A stretch of DNA of 64,000 nucleotides, taken from Nitrobacter winogradskyi (GTDB lineage Bacteria; Pseudomonadota; Alphaproteobacteria; Rhizobiales; Xanthobacteraceae). A program made the translations under genes and the position numbers. The notes under the pieces were generated by a model. The model had not been told where the DNA came from, made no database searches, and saw only the letters and a program-made list of their open reading frames with translations. Location: positions 62,001-126,000 of the forward strand of contig NZ_BJNF01000002.1 of the NCBI RefSeq assembly GCF_006539545.1, read 5' to 3'. Positions 4,698 to 21,044 of the stretch are shown piece by piece. Numbering within the stretch: the stretch's first letter is position 1; the number at the start of each line of letters is the position of its first letter.

Positions 4698-4943
4698 TTA
4701 CTTCACTCCGAACGCCTTGAAGGTGATGATGGTGTGGGTGTCCTGAATGCCGGGAATGACCTGCACCTTTTCGTTGACGAAGTGGCCGATGTCGGTGGCG
4801 TTATCGACATAGAACTTCGCCAGCAGGTCGTAGTCCCCGGCGGTGGAGTAAATTTCCGAGGCGATCTCGGCTTCGGCAAGCGCGTTGGCGACGGCGTAGG
4901 ATTGGCCAAGCTTGCACTTGAACTGAACGAAGAAGGGGACCAT
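4698..4943 (-). CDS. Stand-alone Lrp/AsnC ligand-binding (RAM) domain protein
   Basis: An 81-residue protein made only of the C-terminal effector-binding domain of Lrp/AsnC regulators; no helix-turn-helix precedes it. [18 protein letters not shown] begins the first strand, followed by [20 protein letters not shown], the characteristic G-D-YDL segment, and a C-terminal HTIITFKAF strand. I chose the ATG at 4943 because GGAG lies nine bases upstream; the longer open frame to 5195 runs back through a dispersed repeat and has no family match. Such single-domain proteins are common in Rhizobiales and probably bind amino acids as oligomers, but their targets are not established. Confidence 0.85.
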
Positions 4944-4984
4944 CGCGTATCTCCGAAAAGACGACGCGCCAATATAGCGTCCTC

Positions 4985-5085
4985 GAGCGGGGTGGATACC
5001 GGTTCGCGTGAAGAAACGCGTCAAAAACATAAAGCCAGAATCCTTCACCGTTTCCATGAAGCGGTGAAAGACTCTAGGATCATTA
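4985..5085 (+). repeat. Dispersed intergenic repeat, family A
   Basis: Contains GGATACCGGTTCGCGTGAAG followed by AAACGCGTCAAAA, the core shared with copies near 22040, 23470, 32230 and 37800. The right part holds CTTCACCGTTTCC...GCGGTGAAAGACTCTAG, a stem with the family's CTCTAG terminus. No coding content. It lies in the divergent gap between the Lrp-domain gene and thiD. Confidence 0.75.
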
Positions 5086-5118
5086 TGCTGGCGTGATCCG
5101 ACGCCTTTACGCGAGACG

Positions 5119-5934
5119 ATGATGACAGTCCCTGTTGCCTTGACCATCGCCGGCTCCGATTCCAGCGGCGGCGCGGGAATCCAGGCCGACCTCAAGACAT
5201 TCGCCGCGCTTGGTGTTTATGGAGCGTCCGTCATCACGGCGCTGACCGCGCAGAACACGCAAGGCGTCGCCGCCATCCACAACGTTCCGGCGCATTTCGT
5301 GACTGCGCAGATCGACGCGGTGTTCGGCGATCTCGATGTCGGAGCGCTCAAGATCGGGATGGTCGCCCAGGTTGCCGTCATCGATGCCATCACAGCCGGC
5401 CTGTCGCGCTGGAAGCCGGCGCATGTTGTGCTCGATCCGGTGATGGTCGCGACCTCGGGAGCGCGTCTGCTGGAGTCCGATGCGATCGAGGCATTGCGCA
5501 GCAAGCTTGTTCCGCGCGCGCAGCTGTTGACGCCAAATCTTCCGGAGGCCGCAGTCCTGCTCGACGAACCCGTTGCCGAGGGAGAGCCCGACATCGTGCG
5601 GCAGGGCCAGCGGCTGCTGGAATTCGGCTGTGCCGCGGTCTTGATCAAGGGCGGGCATATGCACGGCCCCGAGAGCATCGATTATCTTGTCACCCGCCAG
5701 GGAACAATGACCTTTGCTGCTCCGCGTGCCGTCACCAGAAATACCCATGGCACTGGCTGTTCGCTGTCGTCAGCCATCGTCGCAGGTCTGGCCAAAGGCG
5801 ACGGCATGGAAACCGCCGTGCGCGGAGCGAAAGCTTACGTGACGGCGGCGATCGCGGCCGCCGACCGGCTGAATATCGGTCGTGGCCATGGACCGATTCA
5901 TCATTTTCACCAGTTCGAGCATTTTCGTTTCTGA
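5119..5934 (+). CDS. thiD: ThiD, hydroxymethylpyrimidine/phosphomethylpyrimidine kinase
   Basis: A 271-residue ribokinase-fold enzyme that phosphorylates 4-amino-5-hydroxymethyl-2-methylpyrimidine twice for thiamine diphosphate synthesis. The N-terminal [18 protein letters not shown] binds the pyrimidine; [14 protein letters not shown] and [12 protein letters not shown] are the conserved central blocks; the anion-hole/catalytic motif is [13 protein letters not shown] near residue 210. Length is normal for the single-domain enzyme. Two ATGs in tandem at 5119 and 5122 could both serve as start. No other thi gene is adjacent. It is followed by a degenerate family-A repeat. Confidence 0.95.
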
Positions 5935-5937
5935 TCG

Positions 5938-6018
5938 AACAGGAAGCGGAACTCCCGCGAACAGGTCATCCATCCCGGGCCAGGCCTGAGGAAATGCTTC
6001 GATCGAAAACGCCATAGA
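5938..6018 (-). repeat. Degenerate copy of dispersed repeat family A
   Basis: Read in reverse it follows the plan of the long family-A form: a GCTTCGATCGAAAACGCC arm, an imperfect CATCCCGGGCCAGGCCTGAGG hairpin in place of the clean CCTCGGG/CCCGAGG stem at 32290, and a worn TCCCGCGAACAGG. Many mismatches suggest an old copy. Confidence 0.5.
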
Positions 6019-6106
6019 GACTGATGACGGCGCAGCCATCCGGGTTGGCGCGTGTCATTGCCTTGTCATGGCGGCATGTTACCCCATGCTCATGGGGAGC
6101 TATGCG

Positions 6107-6904
6107 ATGGATGATGTCAAGCCGGATCACCGGTTCCGGACTCTGTTCATCTCCGATGTTCATCTCGGCGCCAGCGGTTCTCAGGCTGATCAGCTTCTGG
6201 ATTTTCTCAGGTATCACGATGCCGCCACGATCTATCTGGTCGGGGATATCGTCGACGGCTGGGCGCTGAAGTCGAGTTGGCACTGGCCGCAGTCGCACAA
6301 TGACTTCGTCCAGAAGATGCTGCGCAAAGCGCGCAAGGGCGCGACCATCATCTACGTGCCCGGCAATCATGATGAATTCCTGAGATCCTACTACGGAACG
6401 CATTTCGGCGGCATCGAGGTCGTCGAGAACGCGATCCACACCGGCGTTGACGGGCGGCGCTATCTCGTTATCCATGGCGATATCTTCGACCTGGTGGTTC
6501 AGAACGCGCGGTGGCTCGCCCTTCTCGGCGACAAAGCCTATGATTTCGCCATCCGGGTCAACCGCCTCGTCAACGCGTTCCGCCGCTCGTTCGGATTCCC
6601 ATACTGGTCGCTCTCGAAATGGGCGAAGTTCAAAGTGAAGAACGCGGTGAATTACATCGGTGCGTTCGAACAGACGCTCGCCAGCGAGGCAGGGCGTCAC
6701 GGCGCCGACGGCGTGATCTGCGGCCATATCCATCACGCCACGATCCGCAACGAGCACGGCATTCGCTATATGAACTGCGGCGATTGGGTGGAGAGTTGCA
6801 CCGCGCTTGCCGAACATGAGGACGGTCGGTTTGAGATCATCACATGGGCCGATCCGTTGCCCCGTTCGTCGCCTGTTTTGCCCATAAGCGCGCGGGCGGC
6901 GTAG
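6107..6904 (+). CDS. LpxH-like UDP-2,3-diacylglucosamine diphosphatase family metallophosphoesterase
   Basis: A 265-residue calcineurin-like phosphoesterase. The dinuclear metal-binding motifs occur in order: SDVHLG (Asp17, His19), GDIVDGW, GNHDEF, HGDIFD and GHIHHA. The arrangement is that of the LpxH-like family found widely in alphaproteobacteria, which would hydrolyse UDP-2,3-diacylglucosamine to lipid X in lipid A synthesis; whether this member does that or acts on another phosphoester is not shown by sequence. I chose the ATG at 6107 because GGGGAG sits eight bases upstream; an in-frame ATG at 6068 would add 13 poorly conserved residues. Confidence 0.82.
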   Translation: MDDVKPDHRFRTLFISDVHLGASGSQADQLLDFLRYHDAATIYLVGDIVDGWALKSSWHWPQSHNDFVQKMLRKARKGATIIYVPGNHDEFLRSYYGTHFGGIEVVENAIHTGVDGRRYLVIHGDIFDLVVQNARWLALLGDKAYDFAIRVNRLVNAFRRSFGFPYWSLSKWAKFKVKNAVNYIGAFEQTLASEAGRHGADGVICGHIHHATIRNEHGIRYMNCGDWVESCTALAEHEDGRFEIITWADPLPRSSPVLPISARAA

Positions 6905-7041
6905 ATTTTCAGACGGACCGCCCGATGCCTGGCATCCGCAAGCCACCGCGCGCGGTCGCCGGCGATGATCGCGGCCGAGCGGCTATGCTCCGGCCCGCGT
7001 TTCGTGGTCACCTTCGCAAATCCGTGATGGAAGATGGACGG

Positions 7042-8196
7042 TCAGGAAAAGAACGCGATCTTGTCCGCCTGGGTCATGCGCTTGAACGGAGCCATCGGAT
7101 CGGAACGCGGCGTGGGACTCGAAACAACTCCGCTCGCCAGCAGCGAGGCGCCAAGTGAAGGTGGTGCGGGGTTCTCGGAGTTCGCTTCGGGCTCGCGATC
7201 AGGATGCTCGCTTGAATTGTCTGTGATCGGTTCGGAGTCTGGCACCAGATCGGGAGTTTCCGATCCTTCAATACTGGCAAGGCTCGTACTGGCAAGACCC
7301 GTCTCGGGTTCTTCGAGATCAGGCGCTCCCATTTCAAGCGCGATCATGTCGAGCACGGCATCGTCGTGCGCCATGTCCTGTTCACTGACCTCGGCGGCGT
7401 GTGCGTCTTCGCCATGGTTTGGCGTCATCGATCCGCCGGCGGCATCGACCGGCGCGTCGTGTGCAGCAGCGGCTACCGTCTCTGATTCGTTGGCGGCAGC
7501 TTCCACCACTGCCTGCGCCTGAGACGCTGCTTCTTCGGGTAAGGCGACGATCTCATTGATCGTCTCCGGCGGCGCGGCGTCGGATCGGGACGGGGATGCC
7601 GCCGAGGCCGGGCAGTCCCACAATTCGTCGAGCGTGGTCTCGATCACGCTGAAAGCAGAATGCAGCGCCGCCATATCGTCTCTGGCGGCAAGTTGCGAAT
7701 GAGCCTTTTCGATTGCGTCGGTCTGCGAATCGAGAATATCGCAAATCCGGCTGTCTCCGCCGATCTCGCGCCAACGCCACGAGATTTCGCGAATGATGCG
7801 CACGCCGTTCTGGATCGGGACGAGTGCATCGTTCATGATGCGTTTGTCGAGCGCCGCGGTTGCGGTGGTTCTGGCCTCGATGAGACTTTTCCTGATGGCG
7901 GCGAGCGCCTTGGGCAATGCGTCGGCGGGCGTCGCCTGCTGTTGAGTCTCGATCGTTTGCTCTATGCGCGCCACGGCATCGAGCACCATCGCCGTATCGG
8001 CGCTGCGGTTGCGCCTGGCGTATTCGGCGAGGAACCACCGGCCTCTCGATGTCTCCATGAAGGCTTCGCGGATGGCGTCGAAGTCCGCCTCGCCAAGCGG
8101 CGCGGCGCTGGCAGAAATCGGCGACAGGGCGAAAGCTTCATCGGCCATGGCAAACTCATCGCGTAAATCATTTCGCGTTGCTGTAACGATCACCAT
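7042..8196 (-). CDS. Conserved hypothetical protein, helical N-half and acidic disordered C-half
   Basis: I do not recognise a named family. The 384-residue product has a helical N-terminal half (about 25-210) starting with EADFDAIREAFMETSRGRWFLAEYARR and containing TTLDELWDCP, then a long low-complexity region rich in Glu, Ala, Ser and Pro (about 210-350). It ends with the short basic/hydrophobic tail FKRMTQADKIAFFS, a kind of terminal motif I associate with Rhizobiales hypothetical proteins. No signal peptide or membrane segment. An ATG sixteen codons inside (MADEAF) is an equally possible start. It stands between the phosphoesterase and a dipeptide epimerase gene without operon contact. 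Confidence 0.7.
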   Translation of the reverse strand: MVIVTATRNDLRDEFAMADEAFALSPISASAAPLGEADFDAIREAFMETSRGRWFLAEYARRNRSADTAMVLDAVARIEQTIETQQQATPADALPKALAAIRKSLIEARTTATAALDKRIMNDALVPIQNGVRIIREISWRWREIGGDSRICDILDSQTDAIEKAHSQLAARDDMAALHSAFSVIETTLDELWDCPASAASPSRSDAAPPETINEIVALPEEAASQAQAVVEAAANESETVAAAAHDAPVDAAGGSMTPNHGEDAHAAEVSEQDMAHDDAVLDMIALEMGAPDLEEPETGLASTSLASIEGSETPDLVPDSEPITDNSSEHPDREPEANSENPAPPSLGASLLASGVVSSPTPRSDPMAPFKRMTQADKIAFFS

Positions 8197-8341
8197 GATC
8201 CGGCCTGAATCGCAATTGAATTACGCGGTTCGAATCAGAAATCCCCATTCGCTGTGTTCCGGGCGGCGGGCGCTTCACCGCTTGCCGCCCCGAGAGATTG
8301 CCGTCGCGCCATCCTCCGACGTCCCGTGAGCGTCCGGCGGA

Positions 8342-9343
8342 TCAGCCCCAAAGCGCCACGTCGGGCGGGTAGACCGTGCTGCCATCATAGCGAAGGCCGT
8401 CGTCACGATCGCGAGCCAACAGCAGCGGCCCGTCGAGGTCGACGAAACGGGCGTGCTGCGCGATCAGCATGGCGGGCGCCATCGACAGCGAAGTCGCCAC
8501 CATGCAGCCGATCATGACCTCGAAACGCAGCGCACGGGCCGCGTCCGCCATGGCCAGCGCTTCGGTCAGCCCGCCGGTCTTATCGAGCTTGATATTGATG
8601 GCGTCGTAGCGTTCGCGAAGGCCGTCGAGTGACGCCCGGTCATGAACGCTTTCATCGGCGCAGACAGCGATGGGTCTGCGAATGCGCGCCAGCGCTTCGT
8701 CGTTGCCTGCGGGAAGGGGTTGTTCGACCAGCGTGACGCCCGCCGCCTCGCAGGCTGCGAGGTTTCGCTCCAGATTATGAGGTGTCCATGATTCGTTGGC
8801 ATCGACGATCAACTCTGATTCGCGAGCCTGTTTGCGAACGGCGGCGATGCGCTGGGGGTCGCCGTCGCCGCCAAGTTTGATCTTGAGGAGAGGCCGGTGC
8901 GATGCTCGCGCGGTCGCTGCCGCCATGGCTTCGGGCGACCCGAGCGAGATCGTGTAGGCCGTGGAGCGAGGGGAGGGAGCCGGACGGTTCAGGAGTGTCC
9001 AGATCCGCTGGCCGCCGCATTTGGCCTCCAGATCGCACAGCGCACAGTCCAGCGCGTTGCGCGCCGCGCCAGCCGTCATCGCGGATGCGAGTGATCGACG
9101 ATCCAGGCCCGCGGCGAGAGGCTTCTGCATCCCGAGGATGGCAGCGAGAACACCCTCCGGCGTTTCACCATAACGAGCATATGGAACGCATTCCCCGCGT
9201 CCGGTATGGCCGCTCCGGCTGATTTCGGCGACAACCACGACCGCTTCGGTCTTGGCGCCCCGGCTGATCCTGAAACTCCCCGCGATCGGCCATCGTTCGA
9301 TGCGGCACCGGAGCGTGGTTATGTCGTTCGACAATGTTTCCAA
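8342..9343 (-). CDS. Dipeptide epimerase (L-Ala-D/L-Glu epimerase type), enolase superfamily
   Basis: A 333-residue muconate-lactonising subgroup enzyme. The catalytic and metal residues are all visible: the KxK base motif in LLKIKLG, first metal ligand in DANESW, second in VEQPLP, third in CADES, and the opposite-face lysine in NIKLDKTGGL. This set with the N-terminal capping domain (RISRGAKTEAVVVVAEI) is typical of L-Ala-D/L-Glu epimerases, which recycle murein peptides. Dipeptide specificity in this family varies and cannot be read from sequence. The ATG at 9343 gives a normal length. Confidence 0.88.
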   Translation of the reverse strand: METLSNDITTLRCRIERWPIAGSFRISRGAKTEAVVVVAEISRSGHTGRGECVPYARYGETPEGVLAAILGMQKPLAAGLDRRSLASAMTAGAARNALDCALCDLEAKCGGQRIWTLLNRPAPSPRSTAYTISLGSPEAMAAATARASHRPLLKIKLGGDGDPQRIAAVRKQARESELIVDANESWTPHNLERNLAACEAAGVTLVEQPLPAGNDEALARIRRPIAVCADESVHDRASLDGLRERYDAINIKLDKTGGLTEALAMADAARALRFEVMIGCMVATSLSMAPAMLIAQHARFVDLDGPLLLARDRDDGLRYDGSTVYPPDVALWG

Positions 9344-9640
9344 GCTGGCAGGTCCGAATGTACCGCGAGCCGGTCGCGTCGGGGGAAGATAAATCCAACG
9401 AGCCGGCGCTGACGTTCCGCATCATGTCAGCAGAGATGCTGTGCGAAGCTGACGTTGGCCGACGATCCCACACTGGACGCGCTTGCGCAAGGCGCGGTCC
9501 GGCCGCGTGCCGCGGCGTTCTTGACGGCATCCCCCTGATGACATCAACCCCGGGTTGATCATCGGGATCGTGATCTCATCTGCCTGCTGTCGTCAGCAAA
9601 CGGAGGTGAACCTCCGTTTGCTGGTCCGGCGAAGCGCAGG
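9344..9640. other. Gene-free gap between dipeptide epimerase and the giant coiled-coil gene
   Basis: About 300 bases with no convincing gene. It holds a perfect hairpin at 9594-9623 next to the end of the giant gene and a short palindrome TCAACCCCGGGTTGA near 9544. The promoter of the epimerase gene should lie here on the minus strand, but I see no clear -35/-10 pair. Confidence 0.5.
9594..9623 (-). terminator. Hairpin at the 3' end of the giant coiled-coil gene
   Basis: CAGCAAACGGAGG, loop TGAA, CCTCCGTTTGCTG: a perfect 13-base-pair stem 18 bases past the stop codon of the gene ending at 9641. There is no uridine tract, so it may act as an mRNA 3' stabiliser or a weak terminator rather than a classical intrinsic terminator. 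Confidence 0.6.
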
Positions 9641-12600
9641 TTATGCCAGCCGTCCCGCCGCGTGCGCCAGCAAGGTATAGACCAAGCCCGTCTCCGATAT
9701 CAGATGATCGCGTATCACCGAGGGTTCCCGCTCGTCGCGTGCAACCTCGTCCAGCAGCCGTTCGAATTCGGCAACGTAGCGGTCCGCCGTCTGTTTGAAA
9801 GTACGGTCGGTGCGATACTTGCGGGCGACCTCGTCAAACGCCTTCTGGCCAGCCGGTGTGTAGAGCCGCTTTGTGAAGGCGTTGCGTTCGCCGCGCTGAT
9901 AGCGGTCCCACATCTCGCCGACAAGCTTGCGGTCCATCAGGCGGCCGATATCCAGCGATAGGGAATCGAGCGGATTGGCAGCCGCGGCAGCAGGCGATGC
10001 TTGTCGCCCCCGCGGGACGTCGCGTTCCGCCGTATCGGCGTGGTTCAGCAAATCCGAAAGCCAGCCGTCCCCGTCATCGTCAGCGACCGGCGGCTTGGCC
10101 GTCTGCTCCGCGCGGCGGGCTGGTTGCGCGCCCGGCGCCGGCGCCGGGGTGGGTGCCGGGGTAGGCGCCGCATTGCCGTTGTCGCGCATGCGCGACGCGG
10201 TGCGTGCCTTCGCCGCGCTCCGTCCGGCGGCGGCCATCACCGGCTCTGCCTCGCGCTGAGAACTGGACCGCCCGCTGCTGACGACGTCGAACCCATGGCC
10301 ATGACGTGCGACGATCCGGTTCAACTCGGCGAGCGCTTCGATCTGATCGACGATTACCTTGCGCATTTGAGCGGTGCTCTCCGCCGCCTCCTGAGGCATC
10401 TCGAGCACGCCCCGGCGAAGCTCGCCGCGCGTCGTCTCCAGCTCTCGGTGCATTTCGGCCGTCATCTGCTTCATGCTCTGCACCAGCGCGGCAAACCTGT
10501 CGGCAGATTGCCGGAGCATCGATTCCGCTTCCTGACCGGCTTTCTTGCAGATCTCGCTCATCGACTCTGATGTCAGGCGGCGTTCGTTCTCGGCTGCCGC
10601 CCGGACGGCTTCGAACTGACTGTTGATCGCGGCCGATCCCGCTCCGGCGGTTTCGGCCACCACCCGCGCGATATCGCGGGCGCGCTCTTCGGCGGCGGCG
10701 AGCGATTCATCCAGCAGGCTGGTAAAGCGAGTCAGCCGCTGGTCGAAGTCGGTCGTTCGCAAGTCGATCGTTGTCACGAGCGATTCCAGCGCCGACTTGC
10801 GCTCCTCGACCGAGGTCGTGGTTTTCTGGTTGCTCTGCTCGACACGCGCTGCGGCTTCGATCAACGCCTTTCCATGAGTCTCGAACTGGGTCGACAATGA
10901 GCCAAGATCATCGAGGGCCTTTGATGTCTTGGTGTTGAACGTCGTCAACTGTTCCTCAAGTGACTGGGTCGCGAGGCCGCTCTGTGAGGTAACCTCCCTC
11001 ATCGTGGATACGAAGTCGGCGACGCGCGTGACGAGCGTGCGCTCCAGCGAATTCAGATTTTCGTGCGCCCCGGTGAGGACCTCCTGAAGAAGGATGTTGC
11101 CCTCGCGCAGCCGTTCAAACAGCGCAACCGTATCCGTGCGCAGTATCTTGCTGGTCTCCTGCATCTCCGTGACGGCGGCGATGGATGCTTGCCGGGACTG
11201 ATCGATGGCGGAGCGGGATGCCTCCTCGAGATCCTTCAACGATTTGCTGATCGCGCCGGTCGCCAGTTCTCCCGCGCTGGTGATGGTGCGGACCACGTTG
11301 GAGCCATTCGCGGCGATCGATTGAGAGAAGTTCTCGCCCTTGGCCTCGATCGTCTTGAGGGCATCGTCGGTGACGCGGCCGATATCGGAGTTGAGCTGGT
11401 CGGCCTTGCTTCCGAGAGCCTCGATCAAAGACCCCCGTTTACTGTCGAGCATCTGTGAAAGACGATCGGTCTGCTGCTGGACGTAATTGACGATTTCGTC
11501 CGTTTTGCCGGTGATCGTGGTGCCGAAGCTGCCGCTCGCCGCGAAGATCAAACGCTCGGCATCGGTCGATACCGACTTGACCTTGATGCTGATTTCGTTC
11601 GACGCCGAGATAAGAGAGGTTTGCGCATTCTGTGCGCTCGCCTGAATGATTTCGGTGGTGTTTGCCGCGGCCGCGTGGAGCGTGCGTTCGATGTCCGACG
11701 AGATCACCTTCACCTGATTGGCGGAGTCGGCGGAAGCGGCGGTAAGTGTACTGTGGACCTCCCGTGCGCTGCCGAGAAGCGCGGCCGCGGTCTCGGCACC
11801 CACCGTCGTCAGCGTCTGTTCGATGTCGCTTGCAAGCGATTTGACCTGGCTTGCGGTATCGGCCGACGTGGTGGTGAGGGTGGTCTGGGCTTCGCGTGCG
11901 CTGTTGAGAATGGCGGTGGCGGTATCGGCGCCCACTGTCGTCAATGTTTGCTCGATGTCGGTCGCCAGCGATCTGACCTGCCTTGCTGTGTCGGCCGAGG
12001 TGGAGGTGAGAGTGCTCTGGGCTTCACGCGCGCTGTTGAGAATGGCGGCGGCGGTGCCTGCGCTCACTGTCGTCAAGGTCTGCTCGATGTCGCTTGCAAG
12101 CGACTTGACCTGATTGACGGCCTCGGTCGAAGTGGTGGTGAGGGTGGTCTGGGCTTCGCGGGCGCTGTTGAGAATGGCGGTGGCGGTATCGGCGCCCACT
12201 GCCGTCAATGTCCGCTCGATGTCGTTTCCGAGCGATTTGACCTGGTTCGCGGTGTCGGTCGAAGCCTTGACGAGCGTGGTCTGGGCCTCCATCGCGCTCG
12301 ACAGGACGGTGTCAGCGGTCGACGTTCCGGCTGCGGACAGCATGCGTTCGACGTCGGAGCCGACGGTCGAAAGCGTGCGCTCGATCTCGCTCGCGAGCGA
12401 TTTGACCTGATCCGCGGCATCGGATGACGCGGAAACCAGTGTGGTTTGCGCCGCGCGCGCGCCGGCGAGAACTGAATCCGCCGTGTTGGCGCCGGCGGCG
12501 GTCAGTGTCCGCTCGATCTCCGCTGACAGGGATTTGACCTGATCTGCGGTCTCCGCGGACGAGTTGATCAGCGTCGTCTGCGCCTCGCGGGCGCTGTTGA

Positions 12601-15064
12601 GAATGGAGCCCGCCGCCGCTGTTCCGGCGGTGGTCAGGGCGCGCTCGACTTCGGTCGAGGTTAGTTGAAGCTGAGCTCCCACATCGGTTGAAATAGAAAG
12701 CAGGGCCTGCTGAGCGGAGCGGGTGCCGGTCTGAATGGTTTCGCTCGTATTGACGATCAGATTGGTCAGCGAACGTTCCGCGTCCTCGACATGCGACTTG
12801 ATGCCGAACGACAGTTCTTCAGCGCGCGCCAGCAGGATGTCGCTGGCCTCGCGCCCGCTCGATTCGAAGCGGCCCGCCACGGCTTCGACTCGCGATCCGA
12901 GCAGATCCTCGAACTGCGCGACCCGCGTGTCGATCGCGGTCGCGACAAAGCTCACCCGCTCGTCGAGACCTTGATGGATTTCCTGGAACCGCGCCGTGAT
13001 GGTATCCGCGAGGTCCGCGCTGCGGCCGTCGATGGCCTCGGTCACCCCTGAGATGCGCCCTTCAAGCGCCACGACGGCCTGCGTCGCGCCTTCGGTCAGA
13101 GATATCGTAAGGTGGTTCAGGCGACTCTCGATCGAGCCGATCGCATGAGCGGCGCCATCGGACAGCGACGAGGTGAGGGTGACGAGGCGGCTGTCGATCG
13201 TCGCCGTCACCGATTGCGCGCGCGTATCGAAGATATGCTCCAGCGTTTTCAGGCGGCCGTTGACGGATTCGTCGAACGACTTGATCCTGGCGTCGAACGC
13301 GGAATCAAGATTGGTGACGCGCGACCGCAGCGAGGTTTCGAATCTCGCCAGGTGCTGATCCAGCACCGCGCTGATCTCCCCGCCGTTGGAAGTCAGTCGC
13401 GTATCGAAGGTATCGACATAATTCTTCATGCTCTGTGCGATATCTTCGGTGCGTTGCCCAAGGCGGTCGACAATCTCCGCGCCGAAGGTCTTCACCGTGC
13501 GATCAAACTCCGAGATGTGGCGGGTGATCAGAGCGCCCAGCGTTCCGCTGTCGCGCGCGAATTTCTCCGCGAGTTCAGCGCCCTGGTCTTTCACCAGTTG
13601 ATCGAACGCGTTCATCTGAAGGCTGAGCGTATCGTGCGCGGTTTCGGTCTGGCTGACGACGTTGGCCACCAGGCTGTTGACCGTGACGTCGAGTGCTTCG
13701 CTTGCCTTGTCACCGCACGACAAAATCCGGCTTGCCAGCCGATTGCCCGCATCATCGACCTTGCTGGCAAGGTCGCTTCCGCGAAGCTCGAGCTCCAGCA
13801 GCAGGGATTCGCTGGAATTTTTCAGGGCGTCGTGAACCCGCTCGGTGCGGTCCGAAATGCTGTCGACGATGGATGCCGATTTTTGCTCGAATTCGCCCGT
13901 GATCCGGTCGATCCGTTCGTTCAGCATGTCATGGACGCGGTCGGCCAGATCGACGAATTCGTCGTGGACGTGACCGGTCTTGAAATTAAGGCTGCTGGTC
14001 AGGCGCTCGCTGGCGTCCAGAACGGCGCGTGCGGTCTCGGAGCTGGCTTCCTCCAGCCGGTCGAGCAGGTCGCCGCCTCGTTCGCCGAGCGCGAAAATCA
14101 TGTTGTCGCCGGCATTGCTTAGCGCCGACGTGATGTGATCGCCGCGCTCTTCCAGCGCGCCGGTGATGCCTTTCGCGACTTCCTCGACGCGCGAGGCGAT
14201 GGCGTCGCTGATCAGCTCGATATCATGCCGGAGGTCGATCTGAACGCCCGAGATCGCGTTGCGGACCTGCTCGGCCTGGCCGACGAGGTTGTCCCGCTGA
14301 TGGGCGATATCCTGAAGCAGGGCGCGAATCCGCACCTCGTTGTCAGAATAGGCGCGCTCCAGCGCGGCGACCTCGTTGGCGACCAGGGCTTCCAGTTCGC
14401 CGGCGCGGGCGATGGCGCGCTCGACGCCGTCGCCCATCGCGGCGACCTCGCGCCGGATCGCCTGACCGACGGTCACCACCGAATCGCTGGCCAGGCCTTC
14501 CGGCTCGGAGAACCGGATCGCCATCTGGGCCATCGACTGCGCGATCATGCGCAATTCCTGGCCGCGCCACGCCATATGGGCCAGAAAGTAGAACAGCAGC
14601 ACGGGAGCGAAAAACAAGGCGATCAGCCCCGCGAGAGCGAGCGTCCCGCCGCTACCCTGGCCGAGGGCCGCCTGCAACGACGGCAGAAAGCTGATCGTCA
14701 GAAGGCCAGCGCCAAGAATCCAGATGCCGGCGAACACCGTCGCCAGTGTGTAGACGTTGCGGGACGGACTGCTCTTCTGGAGGGTCTGAAGGATATGGCC
14801 GATCGTTTCGCGGTCATCATTGGCGGGACGTCGCGAGAAGTGGGATCCTTCAGCGGGTTCAAGGATCTGTCGATCAATCGAGGTATGGGCGCCGGGTCTG
14901 TCGTCGACGTGGCTGGCGGGCGGGACCGGCGGGGCGCCATCGTGACGGGCCGCAACCTGATCCAGGTCCACGGCGGCGGATGCCTCGCCGACGCTCAGCG
15001 CCTCCTGTATGGCGGAGAGAGCGACTTCCGTTGGATCTTTGACCTTCTTGGGATTGTTCGCCAT
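9641..15064 (-). CDS. Giant membrane-anchored coiled-coil protein, growth pole ring (GPR/RgsE)-like
   Basis: 1,807 residues. A hydrophilic N-terminal tail of about 100 residues is followed by two membrane helices (about 104-127 and 141-163), then roughly 1,400 residues of almost pure helix rich in Ala, Thr, Ser, Glu and Gln with 11-residue periodicity. A tandem block of 44-residue units occupies about residues 790-1165. A Pro/Ala-rich linker near 1640 leads to a compact C-terminal domain (IGRLMDRKLVGEMWDRY to TGLVYTLLAHAAGRL). This architecture matches the growth pole ring protein of Agrobacterium and its Sinorhizobium relative RgsE, which organise polar growth in budding Rhizobiales. I place the start at MANNPKKVKD; an upstream ATG at 15169 adds 35 unlikely residues. 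Homology to GPR is recalled from architecture, not searched. Confidence 0.8.
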   Translation of the reverse strand: MANNPKKVKDPTEVALSAIQEALSVGEASAAVDLDQVAARHDGAPPVPPASHVDDRPGAHTSIDRQILEPAEGSHFSRRPANDDRETIGHILQTLQKSSPSRNVYTLATVFAGIWILGAGLLTISFLPSLQAALGQGSGGTLALAGLIALFFAPVLLFYFLAHMAWRGQELRMIAQSMAQMAIRFSEPEGLASDSVVTVGQAIRREVAAMGDGVERAIARAGELEALVANEVAALERAYSDNEVRIRALLQDIAHQRDNLVGQAEQVRNAISGVQIDLRHDIELISDAIASRVEEVAKGITGALEERGDHITSALSNAGDNMIFALGERGGDLLDRLEEASSETARAVLDASERLTSSLNFKTGHVHDEFVDLADRVHDMLNERIDRITGEFEQKSASIVDSISDRTERVHDALKNSSESLLLELELRGSDLASKVDDAGNRLASRILSCGDKASEALDVTVNSLVANVVSQTETAHDTLSLQMNAFDQLVKDQGAELAEKFARDSGTLGALITRHISEFDRTVKTFGAEIVDRLGQRTEDIAQSMKNYVDTFDTRLTSNGGEISAVLDQHLARFETSLRSRVTNLDSAFDARIKSFDESVNGRLKTLEHIFDTRAQSVTATIDSRLVTLTSSLSDGAAHAIGSIESRLNHLTISLTEGATQAVVALEGRISGVTEAIDGRSADLADTITARFQEIHQGLDERVSFVATAIDTRVAQFEDLLGSRVEAVAGRFESSGREASDILLARAEELSFGIKSHVEDAERSLTNLIVNTSETIQTGTRSAQQALLSISTDVGAQLQLTSTEVERALTTAGTAAAGSILNSAREAQTTLINSSAETADQVKSLSAEIERTLTAAGANTADSVLAGARAAQTTLVSASSDAADQVKSLASEIERTLSTVGSDVERMLSAAGTSTADTVLSSAMEAQTTLVKASTDTANQVKSLGNDIERTLTAVGADTATAILNSAREAQTTLTTTSTEAVNQVKSLASDIEQTLTTVSAGTAAAILNSAREAQSTLTSTSADTARQVRSLATDIEQTLTTVGADTATAILNSAREAQTTLTTTSADTASQVKSLASDIEQTLTTVGAETAAALLGSAREVHSTLTAASADSANQVKVISSDIERTLHAAAANTTEIIQASAQNAQTSLISASNEISIKVKSVSTDAERLIFAASGSFGTTITGKTDEIVNYVQQQTDRLSQMLDSKRGSLIEALGSKADQLNSDIGRVTDDALKTIEAKGENFSQSIAANGSNVVRTITSAGELATGAISKSLKDLEEASRSAIDQSRQASIAAVTEMQETSKILRTDTVALFERLREGNILLQEVLTGAHENLNSLERTLVTRVADFVSTMREVTSQSGLATQSLEEQLTTFNTKTSKALDDLGSLSTQFETHGKALIEAAARVEQSNQKTTTSVEERKSALESLVTTIDLRTTDFDQRLTRFTSLLDESLAAAEERARDIARVVAETAGAGSAAINSQFEAVRAAAENERRLTSESMSEICKKAGQEAESMLRQSADRFAALVQSMKQMTAEMHRELETTRGELRRGVLEMPQEAAESTAQMRKVIVDQIEALAELNRIVARHGHGFDVVSSGRSSSQREAEPVMAAAGRSAAKARTASRMRDNGNAAPTPAPTPAPAPGAQPARRAEQTAKPPVADDDGDGWLSDLLNHADTAERDVPRGRQASPAAAAANPLDSLSLDIGRLMDRKLVGEMWDRYQRGERNAFTKRLYTPAGQKAFDEVARKYRTDRTFKQTADRYVAEFERLLDEVARDEREPSVIRDHLISETGLVYTLLAHAAGRLA
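11560..12690 (-). repeat. Tandem 132-bp coding repeats inside the giant coiled-coil gene
   Basis: About eight direct units of 132 bp, each encoding 44 residues on the pattern ERTLTAVGADTATAILNSAR plus EAQTTL..TS...VKSLASDI. Anchors such as GATTTGACCTG recur near 11838, 11970, 12102, 12234, 12399 and 12531; the one larger step (165) contains an extra 33 bp. Some unit pairs are nearly identical in DNA, suggesting recent duplication or homogenisation. Confidence 0.85.
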
Positions 15065-15234
15065 CTCAGTCCACGCCCTCGTGTTACGCAACCCGCAAGT
15101 TTGCGCCGCCGCTGCAAGTCCGGTCGCCGACCCGAGCCCCAAGCTGGTTCCAGGCGCGGCGATCGCCACCGCCCGTTGTCGGTCATTCCCCCCAACATCC
15201 TATTGGCTTAGCGTCTCGAATGAAATGGTCGTGA

Positions 15235-15249
15235 TTAATACAATCTTAA
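15235..15249. promoter_or_regulatory. CtrA-type box between giant coiled-coil gene and Hpt gene
   Basis: TTAATACAATCTTAA is an exact TTAA-N7-TTAA, the CtrA recognition pattern; a further TTAAC follows six bases later (wrong spacing for a second full box). It lies 170 bases before the coiled-coil gene and 220 before the Hpt gene, in a 404-base divergent gap with no other gene. It could regulate either side. Confidence 0.6.
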
Positions 15250-15468
15250 TCATCGTTAACGACCGGCGGCGCCAGCCGTTCGATCGCCGCGAAAGTGACG
15301 GGGAGGCGGGCCGAATTTGACCGAAATCACGCGGAAGGTCGGCCTCGTACCTGAAACGTTCTGTTAACCAGTTCCATGATTGGCTGGCGGAGATTCCGCG
15401 AGGCTGGTTCGCCGTGGCGGATTGTTCGGATAGCAGCAATGTCGTTTTCTTGTGGACAGGTCGCCTGG

Positions 15469-15816
15469 ATGCCGTCGCCACCGCTGGTTCCGGAGAACGG
15501 ACCGATCGATTTCGATCACCTCCACCGCATGACGCTCGGTGATGACGGTCTCGAACGGGAAGTTCTGGCGATGTTCGCCGGTCAGGCCGCCGAGCTGGTC
15601 GTTTCGCTGGCGCGGCTTCCACCGAATGCCGCGATGCTGGCGCACAGGCTGAAGGGGTCGGCGCGGGCGATAGGGGCCATTCACGTCGCCGCCGCCGCCT
15701 CCGATCTGGAAAACGCGCTCCGCAGCGGCGCCGATCCGGCGGAGCCGCGGGCGATGCTGAATGACGCCGTCAGTCAGGCCTGCCAGGAAATCCGTGCGAT
15801 CCTGTTGCGATCTTGA
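15469..15816 (+). CDS. Hpt-domain histidine phosphotransfer protein
   Basis: A small helical protein of 115 residues consisting of one Hpt domain. The phosphorylatable histidine is His59 in AHRLKGSARAIGA, the standard HxLKGxA/S-type motif; FDHLHRMTLGDDGLEREVLAMF is the family's N-terminal helix pair. It should relay phosphate between a hybrid kinase and a response regulator. It is not ChpT, which has a different fold and length. I chose the ATG at 15469, preceded by ACAGG; in-frame ATGs at 15439 and 15376 are possible. It is divergent from the growth-pole-ring-like gene, so a shared cell-cycle input is plausible but not shown. Confidence 0.8.
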   Translation: MPSPPLVPENGPIDFDHLHRMTLGDDGLEREVLAMFAGQAAELVVSLARLPPNAAMLAHRLKGSARAIGAIHVAAAASDLENALRSGADPAEPRAMLNDAVSQACQEIRAILLRS

Positions 15817-15926
15817 AGACGAATGTCCTCCTTTTTGCGCCGACCGCTGGCGTTGGCCCGATCGTTTCGTTATAGGACAGCCGAACCTCCTTATTATCAA
15901 TAATCTGTTCGGCGGCACCGCACCCT

Positions 15927-16247
15927 ATGACCAAGATCAACTTTGTCGACCATTCCGGCGAAACCCGCACTGTTGACGTCGAGAACGGCGCGACCGTCAT
16001 GGAAGCCGCAATCCGTAACGCCGTTCCCGGCATCGAGGCCGAATGCGGCGGCGCCTGCGCCTGCGCCACCTGTCACGTCTATATCGACGACGCATGGACC
16101 GAGAAGGTCGGCAAGCCGACGCCGATGGAAGAGGACATGCTCGACTTCGGCTATGACGTGCGGCCGAACTCGCGATTATCCTGCCAGATCAAGGTGAGCG
16201 ACGAACTCGAAGGCCTCGTGGTGACGGTGCCGGAGCGGCAGGCTTGA
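15927..16247 (+). CDS. Adrenodoxin-type [2Fe-2S] ferredoxin
   Basis: 106 residues with the vertebrate-type/ISC ferredoxin cysteine pattern: Cys40, Cys46, Cys49 and Cys86 (C-x5-C-x2-C-x36-C) in [17 protein letters not shown] and RLSCQIKV; Cys44 is an extra non-ligand. The acidic stretch PMEEDMLDF matches the partner-docking region of this group (FdVI-like). No isc genes are nearby; the next gene downstream encodes a ferredoxin-NADP reductase, its most obvious partner. The start at 15927 gives [12 protein letters not shown], the usual beginning. Confidence 0.92.
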
Positions 16248-16398
16248 TCCTGTTACATCGCCGGCTGTGGCGGTCCATCGGATCGTCCCTCTCCATAAGC
16301 CCGCATCCGGCGCGGCATGGTCTACGTGACGTAGGCTAAAAGCGGCCCAGGCGGTGCGGCAGTTTAAGGCTTTCCTCAAACCGGCCAGTTGGTTATAG

Positions 16399-17535
<1,137 letters not shown>

Positions 17536-17585
17536 GGCCTGCTGGAGTGTGCGGCATCGTCTTCGGCGCCGTCATCTGAGTCTTC

Positions 17586-17648
17586 TCACCGGGCTCGACC
17601 CGGTGATCCGTCGATTCCGGCGCGCGACGTTCTCCCGCAAGGGGAGAA
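17586..17648. terminator. Two hairpins between convergent FNR and SGNH hydrolase genes
   Basis: TCACCGGG-CTCGA-CCCGGTGA (17586-17606) and TTCTCCC-GCAAG-GGGAGAA (17630-17648). They sit in the convergent gap and could end transcription from both sides; neither has a clear T-run. The second resembles a hairpin I recall as frequent between genes in Rhizobiales. Confidence 0.5.
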
Positions 17649-17690
17649 GGGAAGGGGCCACGCATCAGACGAAGCGATCGCTGCGGCTGT

Positions 17691-19781
17691 TTATTGCTGC
17701 GGGATTGCCGGTGGCGGGGCGGCTTCCGGCGTCGGCGCGGGCGAAGGCGGGGTCAGCGGCGGCAGCGGTTCGCCCGTTACATCACCCGCATCGGCGGCGT
17801 TGAGATGCAGCTGCGCCTCGATCGCCGGCATGGCGGCGTCCGCCATCGCCGCATGACCCTCCGCGGTGGGATGGACCGCCCCGCCGTACACCGCGGAGAG
17901 CAGTCCCCATGTCGCGTCATGGATATCGGACGGCTGCATCAATGAGGACTGCGCCTGCGGGTAGGTCATCGCCGTGAAATAGCTGTCGTTGGCGTCGCGA
18001 ATCCAGCGCGCGCGCGGCAGATAGGCGCGAAACGCGCTCGCCCCGCGGCCGCAAGCGAGAGGCTGATGCGGAGCCTCCACGATGCTGCTGACAAAGCTGT
18101 CCCCCTTCGCCGAGAAACATTCGCGATCGAATTCGGGATCGCTGTCCGCGCGCGCGCAAAATCCGTGATCGGCGAAAGCCGACTGATGCGCATCGACGAA
18201 GGTCATGCGGTCGGTGGCGGGATCGCGGCAGATCACGCCGGACTGGCACGACGCAAGCGCTTTCAGCCCAGGCAGGAATTCGTTCTGGACGTACTCCGTG
18301 ACGGCGGCGAGCCGTCCGGGATCGGCATTGAACGACGGATGAATGTCGAAGCCTGCCTTGCCGCCGGGGCAGGGCGTGCCGCCGTTCGCCAGCGCCGGGT
18401 TGGCGTAGGAGACGAACACGACGCGGGACAGGTCGTTGTCCAGCAGCGGCGTCAACGCGGCGCGCAGCCGGGCGAAGGCTTGCGGCAGGTCACGTTCGAG
18501 GCTCGATCGCGAACCGTGGAGTGATCCGATCAGGCCGCCGCGTTTGAACAGCGCGCGCTCGGTCGCCGCGTCCACGACGACGTCGGAAACGAGGCCGGAG
18601 AAATTGATGTCGTTGGCGCCGATGGTCATCAGCACGAGATCGAGCTTGCGCTCGGGCTGGCGATGTCTGGCCGCCGCAAGCGCCTCGCGCAACTGGGCGA
18701 TCTGGCCGTTGACGGTGCCCTGACATTTGGCCGACGACTTCGCGGTCAGGCATTCGCGCGCGCGTTGCGAACCCAGAATCCCCTCGGGAATGCTGGCGCC
18801 GGTGCAGGCGAGCGGCAGGTAGGTCACGGCGATGTGTGGATAGCGCACCGCGAGGGCGAGCGCGGCGCGGGTCTGGTAGCTGTAGAGCGAGCGATGGCAG
18901 GCCGCGTTCATCCACAGCGCGCCGAATTGCTGCCAGCTTTGCAGCGAGCCGGAGGTGCCGCAGGCCCGGCCGCCTTTATAGCCGGCACGGCTCGGCCGGT
19001 AAAATTCGCGTCCCGCGCCGCCGAAATAGGAGCGAAAGCAGAAGCCTTCGTCCGACAGCGGGACGGCTCGATCCGGGTTGCCTTCACCGGAGGCGATGGA
19101 GTCGCCGAGGCCGGCGATCAGGATGTCGCGCACCTTGATCTGCGCCGTCAGCCGCTGGGTTGCGTCGCCGCCGCTCGTGACGTCGACGGTGGCGCTGGTG
19201 GCGTGGCCGTAGCGGGCGCGGAAGTCGATCGGTTCAGTGCAGTCCTGCGTCGTGCCGCGGGGACTGTCGCCGTCGTCGAATGACCAGGCGCAGACGGCGC
19301 CGACCGGGACCGCGCCGGTAAGGCGCACGGTGACCGGATGCTCTGTCGGTGTCAGATAGCTTTCCTTGACATTGTCGCGCGTGCAGGGCTCGCTGACGTG
19401 GCCTCCGAGATCGATGCAAAGACGGTTCACGGCGTTGCGGGCCCAGCCGCGGCCGTCGCTTTGCTGTTCAAACGCCTGCTCGGCGGCGAGAATGCTCTGG
19501 TTGCTTTCGGCGGCGGCATGGATCTGAAAGTCCCGCTCCTCGCGAAACAGCCGGAAACGGTTGCGGACCTCCCATGAAATCTGCATTCCGCCGGCGGCCC
19601 GATCCGGGACCGGAGCGGCGGGGCCGGCCTCGGCGATGCCGTCGGGAAGCGGCTGCGCGGCGATCTGCTGCGCGGCAAGGCTTCCAATAGGAAGGCTTCC
19701 AATAGGAAGGCTTCCAACAGCAAGGCTACCAAGCAGTGGCAGGACAATCCCGATGAGGAATGAGGCGTGAGCGCGGGCCAT
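17691..19781 (-). CDS. Large secreted SGNH/GDSL-family hydrolase
   Basis: 696 residues starting with a signal peptide (MARAHASFLIGIVLPLLG...). A beta-rich N-terminal region of about 200 residues precedes the SGNH hydrolase domain. Block I is LGDSIASGEGN near residue 228 with the nucleophile serine; the block II glycine is in CTGASIPEGI; block III Asn is in TIGANDINF near 389; block V is HPTAEGH near 637, carrying the catalytic His. Several long insertions with paired cysteines fit an exported enzyme. The substrate (lipid, acylated glycan or other ester) cannot be told. I chose the ATG at 19781 over the longer frame to 19904 because the signal peptide starts there. Confidence 0.82.
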   Translation of the reverse strand: MARAHASFLIGIVLPLLGSLAVGSLPIGSLPIGSLAAQQIAAQPLPDGIAEAGPAAPVPDRAAGGMQISWEVRNRFRLFREERDFQIHAAAESNQSILAAEQAFEQQSDGRGWARNAVNRLCIDLGGHVSEPCTRDNVKESYLTPTEHPVTVRLTGAVPVGAVCAWSFDDGDSPRGTTQDCTEPIDFRARYGHATSATVDVTSGGDATQRLTAQIKVRDILIAGLGDSIASGEGNPDRAVPLSDEGFCFRSYFGGAGREFYRPSRAGYKGGRACGTSGSLQSWQQFGALWMNAACHRSLYSYQTRAALALAVRYPHIAVTYLPLACTGASIPEGILGSQRARECLTAKSSAKCQGTVNGQIAQLREALAAARHRQPERKLDLVLMTIGANDINFSGLVSDVVVDAATERALFKRGGLIGSLHGSRSSLERDLPQAFARLRAALTPLLDNDLSRVVFVSYANPALANGGTPCPGGKAGFDIHPSFNADPGRLAAVTEYVQNEFLPGLKALASCQSGVICRDPATDRMTFVDAHQSAFADHGFCARADSDPEFDRECFSAKGDSFVSSIVEAPHQPLACGRGASAFRAYLPRARWIRDANDSYFTAMTYPQAQSSLMQPSDIHDATWGLLSAVYGGAVHPTAEGHAAMADAAMPAIEAQLHLNAADAGDVTGEPLPPLTPPSPAPTPEAAPPPAIPQQ
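19675..19734 (-). repeat. Four 15-bp tandem repeats in the signal-peptide region of the SGNH hydrolase
   Basis: Units GCAAGGCTTCCAATA, GGAAGGCTTCCAATA, GGAAGGCTTCCAACA and GCAAGGCTACCAAGC encode the repeating pentapeptide GSL(P/A)(I/V)/GSLAA. Because 15 is a multiple of three, unit gain or loss would only change the length of the hydrophobic leader. Confidence 0.85.
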
Positions 19782-19913
19782 GAGCGGTTTTGACGCGATG
19801 GTTTTGGCGGAAATAAGAGCGGAGGTGAGCGGGGCGGTTTGGCCGAGGGGGCGATCGTCGGATAGCGGGGATGCGAGCCGCAGCGAGTTGTTTCGAACCC
19901 GCAACCTGCCGGT

Positions 19914-21044
19914 TCAGTCCTGCGTGACGGCCGACCTGGCGGCGTGCGGCTTCGGTGATGCCGCTTCATCCGGCGCGTTCTCACTGTTGCTGCTGTCGTG
20001 ACCCGTGCCGGCGTCGTTGCCATTGCTGACGTCACCGTTGCCGTTGTTGATCTTGCGGCGGCGCTGCCAGGGCTGCACCACGTTGAGCCACAACTCGCGC
20101 GTGCCCATGATGGTGATGGCAAGCGCGAACGGGATCATGAAATAGAGGATCCGGAAGACCAGCAGCGTCGCCAGCATCTGCTCCTTGCCGAACTGCGGCA
20201 GCGCCACCAGCATTGCCGCGTCGAACACGCCGAGGCTTCCCGGCGCATGGCTGGCGAAGCCGAGCAGGGTGGCCAGAATGAAGACGACCGCCACCGACAC
20301 GAAATCGATGTCCGGATGCGCGGGCATCAACAGATACATCGCCAGTGCACAGAATCCGAGATCGACGACACCGATCAGGATCTGCACGAAGGTCAGCGGC
20401 GCCGACGGCAGCACGACCTTCCAGCCGTTTTGCCCGAGTTCGCGGCGGTTGCGGCCGGTGATGATCCAGGCGAGATAGATGGCGATGCCGGCGAGGCACC
20501 CGAACGCGATCAGGCGGTTGACGGACGGCGGCAGCAGGTCCATCGCGCTCGCCGCCCAGGGATGCCAGGCCATGCCGATGCCGAGCACGAACAGGTTGCC
20601 AAGCCAGAATGTCAGTCCGGAGATGAAGCAGATTTTCGCGACGTCGATGGCGTTCAGCCCATAGTCCGAATAGATCCGAAACCGGATCGCGCCGCCGGTG
20701 AAGACCGTCGCGCCGACATTGTGGCCGATGGTGTAGCTCGTGAAGGCGGCCAGCGCCGCCACGCGATAGGGGATATGATCCTTGCCGATCGTCCGCACCG
20801 CGAAGAAATCATAGAATGTCAGGGTGCAGAACGCGCCGACCACGCAAAGCGCGGCCATGGCGATCAGATAGGGCGACTTCTCCGTCAGCGCGATCAGGAT
20901 GACACCTGTGTCGACACCCTGGAGCGTGTGGATAAGGGTCGTGATCGCGAAAGCGATGATCACGAGGCTCGCAATGACGCCAAGCCCTTTCCAGCCAATC
21001 CTTTCCTTGAAGCCGCGCTGCAGCGCGGTCAGCAGCCGACGCAT
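19914..21044 (-). CDS. YbhN/UPF0104-family membrane protein (lysylphosphatidylglycerol synthase TM-region-like)
   Basis: 376 residues with about eight hydrophobic helices, matching the flippase-like transmembrane half of MprF (LPG_synthase_TM family) without the synthase domain. Conserved features visible are the FTSYTIGHNVGATVFTGGAIRFRIYS block near residues 95-125 and the HAPGSLGVFDAAM block near 270. Family members are thought to move lipids or lipid-linked intermediates, but most are uncharacterised. The C-terminal tail after about 335 is hydrophilic and asparagine/serine-rich. It is followed, same strand, by the SGNH hydrolase gene about 130 bases on, so joint transcription is possible. 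Confidence 0.82.
   Translation of the reverse strand: MRRLLTALQRGFKERIGWKGLGVIASLVIIAFAITTLIHTLQGVDTGVILIALTEKSPYLIAMAALCVVGAFCTLTFYDFFAVRTIGKDHIPYRVAALAAFTSYTIGHNVGATVFTGGAIRFRIYSDYGLNAIDVAKICFISGLTFWLGNLFVLGIGMAWHPWAASAMDLLPPSVNRLIAFGCLAGIAIYLAWIITGRNRRELGQNGWKVVLPSAPLTFVQILIGVVDLGFCALAMYLLMPAHPDIDFVSVAVVFILATLLGFASHAPGSLGVFDAAMLVALPQFGKEQMLATLLVFRILYFMIPFALAITIMGTRELWLNVVQPWQRRRKINNGNGDVSNGNDAGTGHDSSNSENAPDEAASPKPHAARSAVTQD

Follow-up and report, generated by a model that had tools for sequence, protein, structure and literature searches.

GPR of Agrobacterium tumefaciens (Atu1348) is a protein of 2,115 aa with two membrane helices, a rod matching the Pfam family PF01442 and a C-terminal region that is required for function (PMC8262873). 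Its identity to RgsE of Sinorhizobium meliloti is 42% (PMC7327166), and both are described as membrane-anchored cytoplasmic proteins of the growing pole, the loss or depletion of which results in round or misshapen cells and the overproduction of which results in branching (PMC8262873, PMC7327166). RgsE is dispensable in S. meliloti, and distant homologues of it were already recorded in Emcibacterales and Rhodospirillales (PMC7327166).

The Caulobacter protein TipN, with a reported length of 882 aa (PMC13170164), has two N-terminal membrane domains and a coiled coil, and the experiments on it concern the marking of the new pole and the interaction with ParA and TipF (PMC9178275). The similarity of GPR to TipN was stated in 2021 with a citation of the 2019 GPR paper (PMC8546619), and in 2026 the two proteins were termed analogous (PMC13170164). 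Most alphaproteobacterial genomes are stated to be without TipN (PMC5182065), and TipN is called Caulobacter-specific (PMC4460556). In stalk development, the HPt protein ShpA acts between ShkA and TacA (PMC7010744, PMC5590869), and the title of the paper on its structure is found in the reference list of PMC5590869.

Here we describe a locus within a stretch of 64,000 nucleotides of the Nitrobacter winogradskyi genome (contig NZ_BJNF01000002.1), hereafter called the window, in which a gene of the GPR/RgsE type stands back to back with a gene of the ShpA type.

The scaffold gene and its product

The features of the locus are collected in Table 1. The initial annotation had recognised here a giant coiled-coil protein resembling GPR, and our analysis confirms this observation: the frame of 1,807 aa is open from end to end and single copy, with one match in its own genome (3.96 Mb, 172 contigs). 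A longer frame beginning with GTG extends to position 15169 and would encode 1,842 aa. When the proteins were compared by blastp, the first conserved block started at residue 80 in the window protein and at residue 95 in RgsE, and therefore the ATG start at 15064 fits RgsE. The two N-terminal membrane helices that had been proposed were borne out by the hydropathy scan, which found exactly two segments (144–162 and 177–195 if counted in the 1,842-aa frame) and no further membrane segments.

The proposal of long helical repeats held in part. There is a rod that matches the Pfam family Apolipoprotein (PF01442) in 8 stretches (E 2e-53), but regular repeats do not run throughout it, the sole array detected by Tandem Repeats Finder being that of a 132-bp (44-aa) unit at 11721–12286. 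The rod is repetitive helix, and its PF01442 matches are no proof of lipid binding. A Pro-rich linker follows, and then the C-terminal domain (~112 aa). Among Pfam and NCBIfam families, PF01442 alone scored above cut-off in the window protein, and Rfam models at gathering cut-offs gave no match in positions 7000–20000 of the window. The downstream neighbour of the scaffold gene (8342–9343) encodes an enolase-superfamily (MR_MLE) protein.

Table 1. Features of the scaffold locus, in window coordinates.
Feature	Position	Strand	Remarks
gpr/rgsE orthologue	9641..15064	-	Open frame, 1,807 aa; stop at 9641, ATG at 15064
C-terminal helical domain, 112 aa	9644..9979	-	Common to RgsE and TipN
Coiled-coil/apolipoprotein-like rod	10240..14550	-	PF01442; limits approximate, by eye
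Two transmembrane helices	14585..14740	-	Residues 109–127 and 142–160 from ATG; hydropathy scan
CtrA-type box, TTAA-N7-TTAA	15235..15249	.	gpr-shpA intergenic region
shpA-type HPt gene	15469..15816	+	Divergent from gpr; Pfam Hpt 8.8e-10; phospho-His kept
2Fe-2S ferredoxin	15927..16247	+	Conserved neighbour; PF00111 3.6e-14

Orthology to RgsE

As the reference for RgsE we used the S. meliloti protein UIJ93612.1 (record CP090106.1), the length of which, 2,089 aa, equals that published for RgsE (PMC7327166). Blastp of the end pieces, run without composition correction, revealed an identity of 40% at the membrane end (255 aa, E 2e-56) and of 39% at the C-terminal end (302 aa, E 4e-69), and the whole-length comparison, which consists mostly of rod, 25% identity over 1,665 columns (E 4e-66). 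Moreover, the upstream neighbours are alike in S. meliloti and in the window: a divergent Hpt gene is followed by a gene for a 2Fe-2S ferredoxin. Thus, both the end domains and the synteny agree with the plan in common with RgsE that had been suggested for the window protein, and the assignment of the window gene as an orthologue of rgsE in Sinorhizobium, and by extension of gpr in Agrobacterium, is well supported by these comparisons. By this orthology the window protein would have a role at the pole, which lends support to the initial reading of it as a polar growth scaffold.

The S. meliloti record that holds the rgsE region (strain Ak57, our locus L061) is titled plasmid pSymB, has a size of 3.72 Mb and looks like a mislabelled chromosome. 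When the C-terminus was compared by tblastn with plasmid records, four Sinorhizobium, one Shinella and one Sphingomonas records matched.

Long coiled coils can resemble each other by composition only, and the window protein could in principle be a generic membrane protein of the kinesin, SMC or ZorA kind. It has a weak match to the ZorA model (E 2.9e-4, 19.3 bits), and RgsE, which is annotated as 'kinesin' in the S. meliloti record, reaches 69.8 bits with the same model (E 1.5e-19). However, both scores are far below the model cut-off of 190 bits, PF01442 is the only family to pass its Pfam or NCBIfam cut-off, and the homology resides in the end domains, where reversed and shuffled controls of the comparison between GPR and TipN (see below) fail. 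The end-domain matches contradict the generic reading, and we consider it extremely improbable. The kinesin, SMC and ZorA identities were rejected since the domain matches stay under the cut-off, and the earlier warning that database names for such proteins would mislead proved correct.

The C-terminal domain is widespread in the class

The C-terminal domain had been expected to be compact and conserved, and it is. The last 116 aa of the window protein match 142 of 150 genomes of the order Rhizobiales (E ≤ 0.01), which is far above chance, and a profile of the domain revealed its presence in 113 of 289 genomes of the class. The frames that bear it across the class vary greatly in length, from 330 to 2,752 aa. 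In scans of the window protein, RgsE and TipN, the best stretch of every matching Pfam or NCBIfam family lay outside this domain. The AlphaFold2 model of the domain is all helical and confident (pLDDT 87.7, pTM 0.80); in the alignment from which the window model was made, all the other rows were TipN sequences. No clear match was obtained with the domain in the PDB by sequence (best E 0.1) or with the domain models by Foldseek (best E 1.2 and 2.1), and the VIA structural comparison gave at most Z 4.6 (57 residues, rmsd 5.0) and Z 2.7 (90 residues, rmsd 5.5). The lack of a structural match does not demonstrate a new fold. The globular domain may be a conserved docking module of a class-wide family.

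GPR/RgsE and TipN are members of one family

The profiles of the GPR family and of Caulobacteraceae TipN were aligned with hhalign. The probability was 99.6 (E 5.6e-24) for the membrane region and 98.1 (E 1e-13) for the C-terminus, compared with 10.7 and 0.8, respectively, for reversed profiles and 1.2 and 4.0 for the best of 60 column shuffles. The searches of genomes led to the same places from both sides. With the TipN C-terminal profile, the window genome gave a single location, which was the C-terminus of GPR (E 2.8e-10); altogether the profile matched 20 of 21 genomes, and the places agreed in the 8 other genomes that were also in the GPR-domain search. Conversely, the GPR C-terminal profile, which was built without Caulobacteraceae, found one place (E ≤ 1) in each of five Caulobacteraceae genomes, with E-values between 2.5e-8 and 7.9e-7; the coordinates put all five places in the tipN frame, though in three genomes the profile covered just the last ~65 of its 112 positions. 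A family with weak matches in the class-wide search for the domain turned out to be Caulobacteraceae, its member protein having matches in 38 of 40 Caulobacteraceae genomes. In Caulobacter vibrioides DSM 9893 (L263) the frame is 888 aa long, or 882 aa if counted from the second Met, and we identified the Caulobacteraceae gene as tipN by length, architecture and species, not by locus tag.

These profile comparisons demonstrate that GPR/RgsE and TipN are homologous at both ends and belong to a family spread over the class. The resemblance of GPR to TipN was in print; what is new here is the tested homology and the wide family. In the unrooted tree of 72 scaffold sequences (L144 and L151 were left out) TipN forms its own clade and the HPt-linked members fall into several clades.

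MreB and the length of the scaffold

No match to MreB was found in the window genome at E 1e-20 or 1e-50, as would be expected of a polar grower. Among the 113 class genomes with the C-terminal domain, 106 also have MreB (two result lists compared by eye), which means that family membership alone is no proof of polar growth. Within the order, frames of at least 1,500 aa occurred in none of the 18 MreB-positive and in 83 of the 124 MreB-negative scaffold genomes (Mann-Whitney test of scaffold length, P = 5.6e-5, uncorrected for kinship), some of the short frames in this sample being truncated at the edge of a contig. Outside the order, long scaffolds coexist with MreB, for example in G178 (2,000 aa) and G383 (2,121 aa). 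The general rule that scaffold length follows the loss of MreB was therefore rejected; it could apply at most inside the order.

The relation to TipN raises the question of whether the window protein is a landmark only, which would mark the new pole and place parts of the chromosome, flagellum or division machinery without itself organising wall growth. TipN is related to it at both ends, and the many MreB-positive carriers of the domain fit such a role. However, the window protein is nearer to RgsE (40% and 39% identity at the ends) than to TipN, with which it shares 21–29% identity in the C-terminus; it has the length of the RgsE type and the PF01442 rod, and MreB was not found in its genome. 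We therefore regard the landmark-only role as improbable and favour the reading as an RgsE-type organiser of polar growth.

The divergent gene encodes a ShpA-type HPt protein

The longest frame of the HPt gene begins at 15376, and the start at 15469 was judged from relatives. The search of the PDB with the window HPt yielded one match at E ≤ 1, entry 2ooc (E 5.5e-6), which we take to be ShpA. With a profile of the linked HPts, 2ooc was again first (E 2.3e-19), the next entry being at 7.5e-6. Each of three Caulobacter genomes contains one strong match to the HPt, and over 112 aa the only match in C. vibrioides DSM 9893 does not differ from 2ooc. Judging by these matches, the window HPt gene is an orthologue of Caulobacter ShpA. 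This divergent gene and the relation to TipN are additions beyond the initial annotation.

The phospho-His is invariant in all 21 rows of the HPt alignment and is kept in 25 of the 30 linked HPts checked; in 7 of these 30 the His-pattern search landed beside the active site, and the His was read there from other alignments or listings. The five linked HPts that have lost it are of the sphingomonad type (L063:5610-5903, L119, L121, L122 and L123), with Leu, Trp, Gln or Met as the replacement, as if they had turned into binding-only partners.

Linkage of the scaffold and HPt genes

Of the 142 scaffold-bearing genomes of the order (150 sampled), 105 had a ShpA-type HPt on the upstream side of the scaffold at 4 kb or less; its orientation was divergent in 101 of them, and the median distance was 454 bp, as measured from the HPt match to the stop-to-stop frame of the scaffold. 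In all 105 genomes the linked HPt was the best HPt match of the genome. The alignment behind the HPt profile (A3) includes 12 genomes of the order sample, all of them linked, and without these the count is 93 of 130. By a rough estimate for a genome of 4 Mb, chance would bring the two genes within 4 kb of each other in ~0.1% of cases, although kinship makes the genomes non-independent. The remaining 37 genomes comprise 13 with the HPt on another contig, one (G129) in which it is far away, and 23 without an HPt among the matches listed. The 13 and G129, several of which have short or edge-cut contigs, were counted as unlinked, and G032 and G100, the HPt scores of which are weak (128 genomes match in all, 126 of them listed), were counted as being without HPt. 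Given the 23 genomes with no listed HPt, the scaffold must be able to do without ShpA.

The pair recurs outside the order in several families and in Sphingomonas. Among 40 class loci chosen from the 113 domain-bearing genomes, 13 have an HPt upstream, which is stand-alone and divergent in 12 and part of a hybrid kinase on the strand of the scaffold in one (L145); some of the sphingomonad HPt matches are weak (E up to 0.002), and in L149 no scaffold was located. The kinase gene in L145 (2226–4847), separated by 75 bp from the scaffold gene downstream of it (4922–9814), encodes a hybrid histidine kinase ending in the HPt. In Caulobacter, shpA and tipN are unlinked, and neither an HPt nor a ferredoxin of the window type was found in the flanks of 80 tipN loci (up to 8 kb, some contigs being shorter). 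At L206, a deep-branching Caulobacteraceae locus, there is a divergent HPt ~3.1 kb upstream. In two of the three Caulobacter genomes, shpA has genes resembling those for sulfite reductase, as judged by eye, at a distance of a few kb at most.

In up to 7 kb of sequence upstream of the scaffold, the ferredoxin gene was present at 24 of 84 loci. In the order it is almost as conserved nearby as the HPt, and thus the linkage may partly be plain synteny.

The shared promoter region

The intergenic region between the scaffold and HPt genes of the window contains the motif TTAA-N7-TTAA, presumably the CtrA consensus. We found this box in 6 of 28 scaffold-HPt intergenic regions, compared with an expectation of 0.12 and a maximum of 2 in 300 dinucleotide shuffles, although local AT-richness may push this expectation too low. 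The regions were widened by 90 bases per side, two of the 30 linked loci were omitted, and two of the six regions with the box (L064 and L065) belong to the window's own family.

These data bear on whether the pairing of gpr and shpA is inherited synteny with no functional meaning. The ferredoxin, likewise conserved, stays in five order loci where no HPt was found (L066, L072, L074, L078 and L080), shpA and tipN stand apart in Caulobacter, and an HPt is missing from the listed matches of 23 of the 142 scaffold-bearing genomes of the order, all of which speaks for mere synteny. On the other hand, no ferredoxin was present in the flank covered in 9 of the 12 non-order loci (Caulobacteraceae left out) with a stand-alone divergent HPt (L063, L114–L119, L121 and L123), the linked HPt is the best of its genome in every linked order genome, and the CtrA-type box recurs in the shared regions. 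We give synteny without function a chance that falls only a little short of even. The homology and the linkage follow directly from the comparisons of sequence, and the functional tie of the scaffold to ShpA and CtrA suggested by them is the weaker part of our reading. Literature searches joining ShpA or Hpt with GPR or RgsE, and TipN with GPR, revealed no mention of the scaffold-HPt pairing in the portions of text seen among the matches listed.

A model for the scaffold and its partner

Taken together, the locus is very probably that of an rgsE/gpr orthologue, a polar-growth hub from a family that includes TipN, with a weaker tie to ShpA and CtrA. By analogy with GPR and RgsE, the two N-terminal helices would anchor the scaffold in the inner membrane, and the helical rod would lie in the cytoplasm, with the protein situated at the growing pole, as a ring in the case of GPR. 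The scaffold could act there as a hub that gathers envelope synthesis. An old family of polarity landmarks, TipN among them, may have become the growth organiser in MreB-free Rhizobiales, and, more tentatively, a phosphorelay of the ShpA type and the CtrA box in the shared promoter might put the scaffold, in its synthesis or its activity, under cell-cycle control.

A more far-reaching version of this model is possible, and we hold it to be rather doubtful as a whole. GPR, RgsE, TipN and many proteins filed as 'hypothetical' or 'kinesin' would form one family with a membrane module and a C-terminal helical domain for which we found no Pfam model, and ShpA would be its ancestral partner, the two genes standing back to back and under CtrA. 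A ShpA phosphorelay that acts on the scaffold, or is assembled by it, would switch polar growth in Rhizobiales, the scaffold being of the family by which Caulobacter marks its new pole, and the scaffold would have lengthened and taken over growth in the MreB-free members of the order.

The subject bears on how Rhizobiales lacking MreB choose and switch the growing pole. If the GPR ring and TipN represent one family, results could be transferred between two model systems. The signalling gene that stands back to back with the scaffold gene in most of the relatives examined hints at a possible control of tip growth, and the divergent shpA is a specific candidate for the signal by which growth at the pole is started or stopped, and one that is easy to delete. 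The main interest lies in the unification of the family and above all in the conserved pairing with shpA, through which the control of pole growth becomes accessible to experiment.

Comparison with described systems

The window protein is most similar to RgsE (SMc00190), with which it shares the two N-terminal membrane helices, the apolipoprotein-like rod, the Pro-rich linker, the homologous C-terminal domain and the upstream neighbours. RgsE is longer (2,089 aa versus 1,807 aa) and contains 12 PF01442 stretches versus 8 in the window protein, and its localisation has been described (PMC7327166). GPR was compared by its published description, and the architecture given there matches that of the window protein; the ring and the phenotype are those of GPR.

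TipN has a homologous membrane region and C-terminal domain, and the predicted helix pattern of the latter is closely similar, a likeness that is not independent, since TipN rows went into the window model. Unlike the window protein, TipN is about half as long and lacks a PF01442 match at E ≤ 0.01, and Caulobacter possesses MreB, which served as the control of the MreB search. Finally, Caulobacter ShpA, like the product of the divergent window gene, is a stand-alone HPt domain with the phospho-His, and among HPt proteins of solved structure it is the closest to that of the window. Its gene lies apart from tipN in Caulobacter, whereas the window gene adjoins the scaffold.
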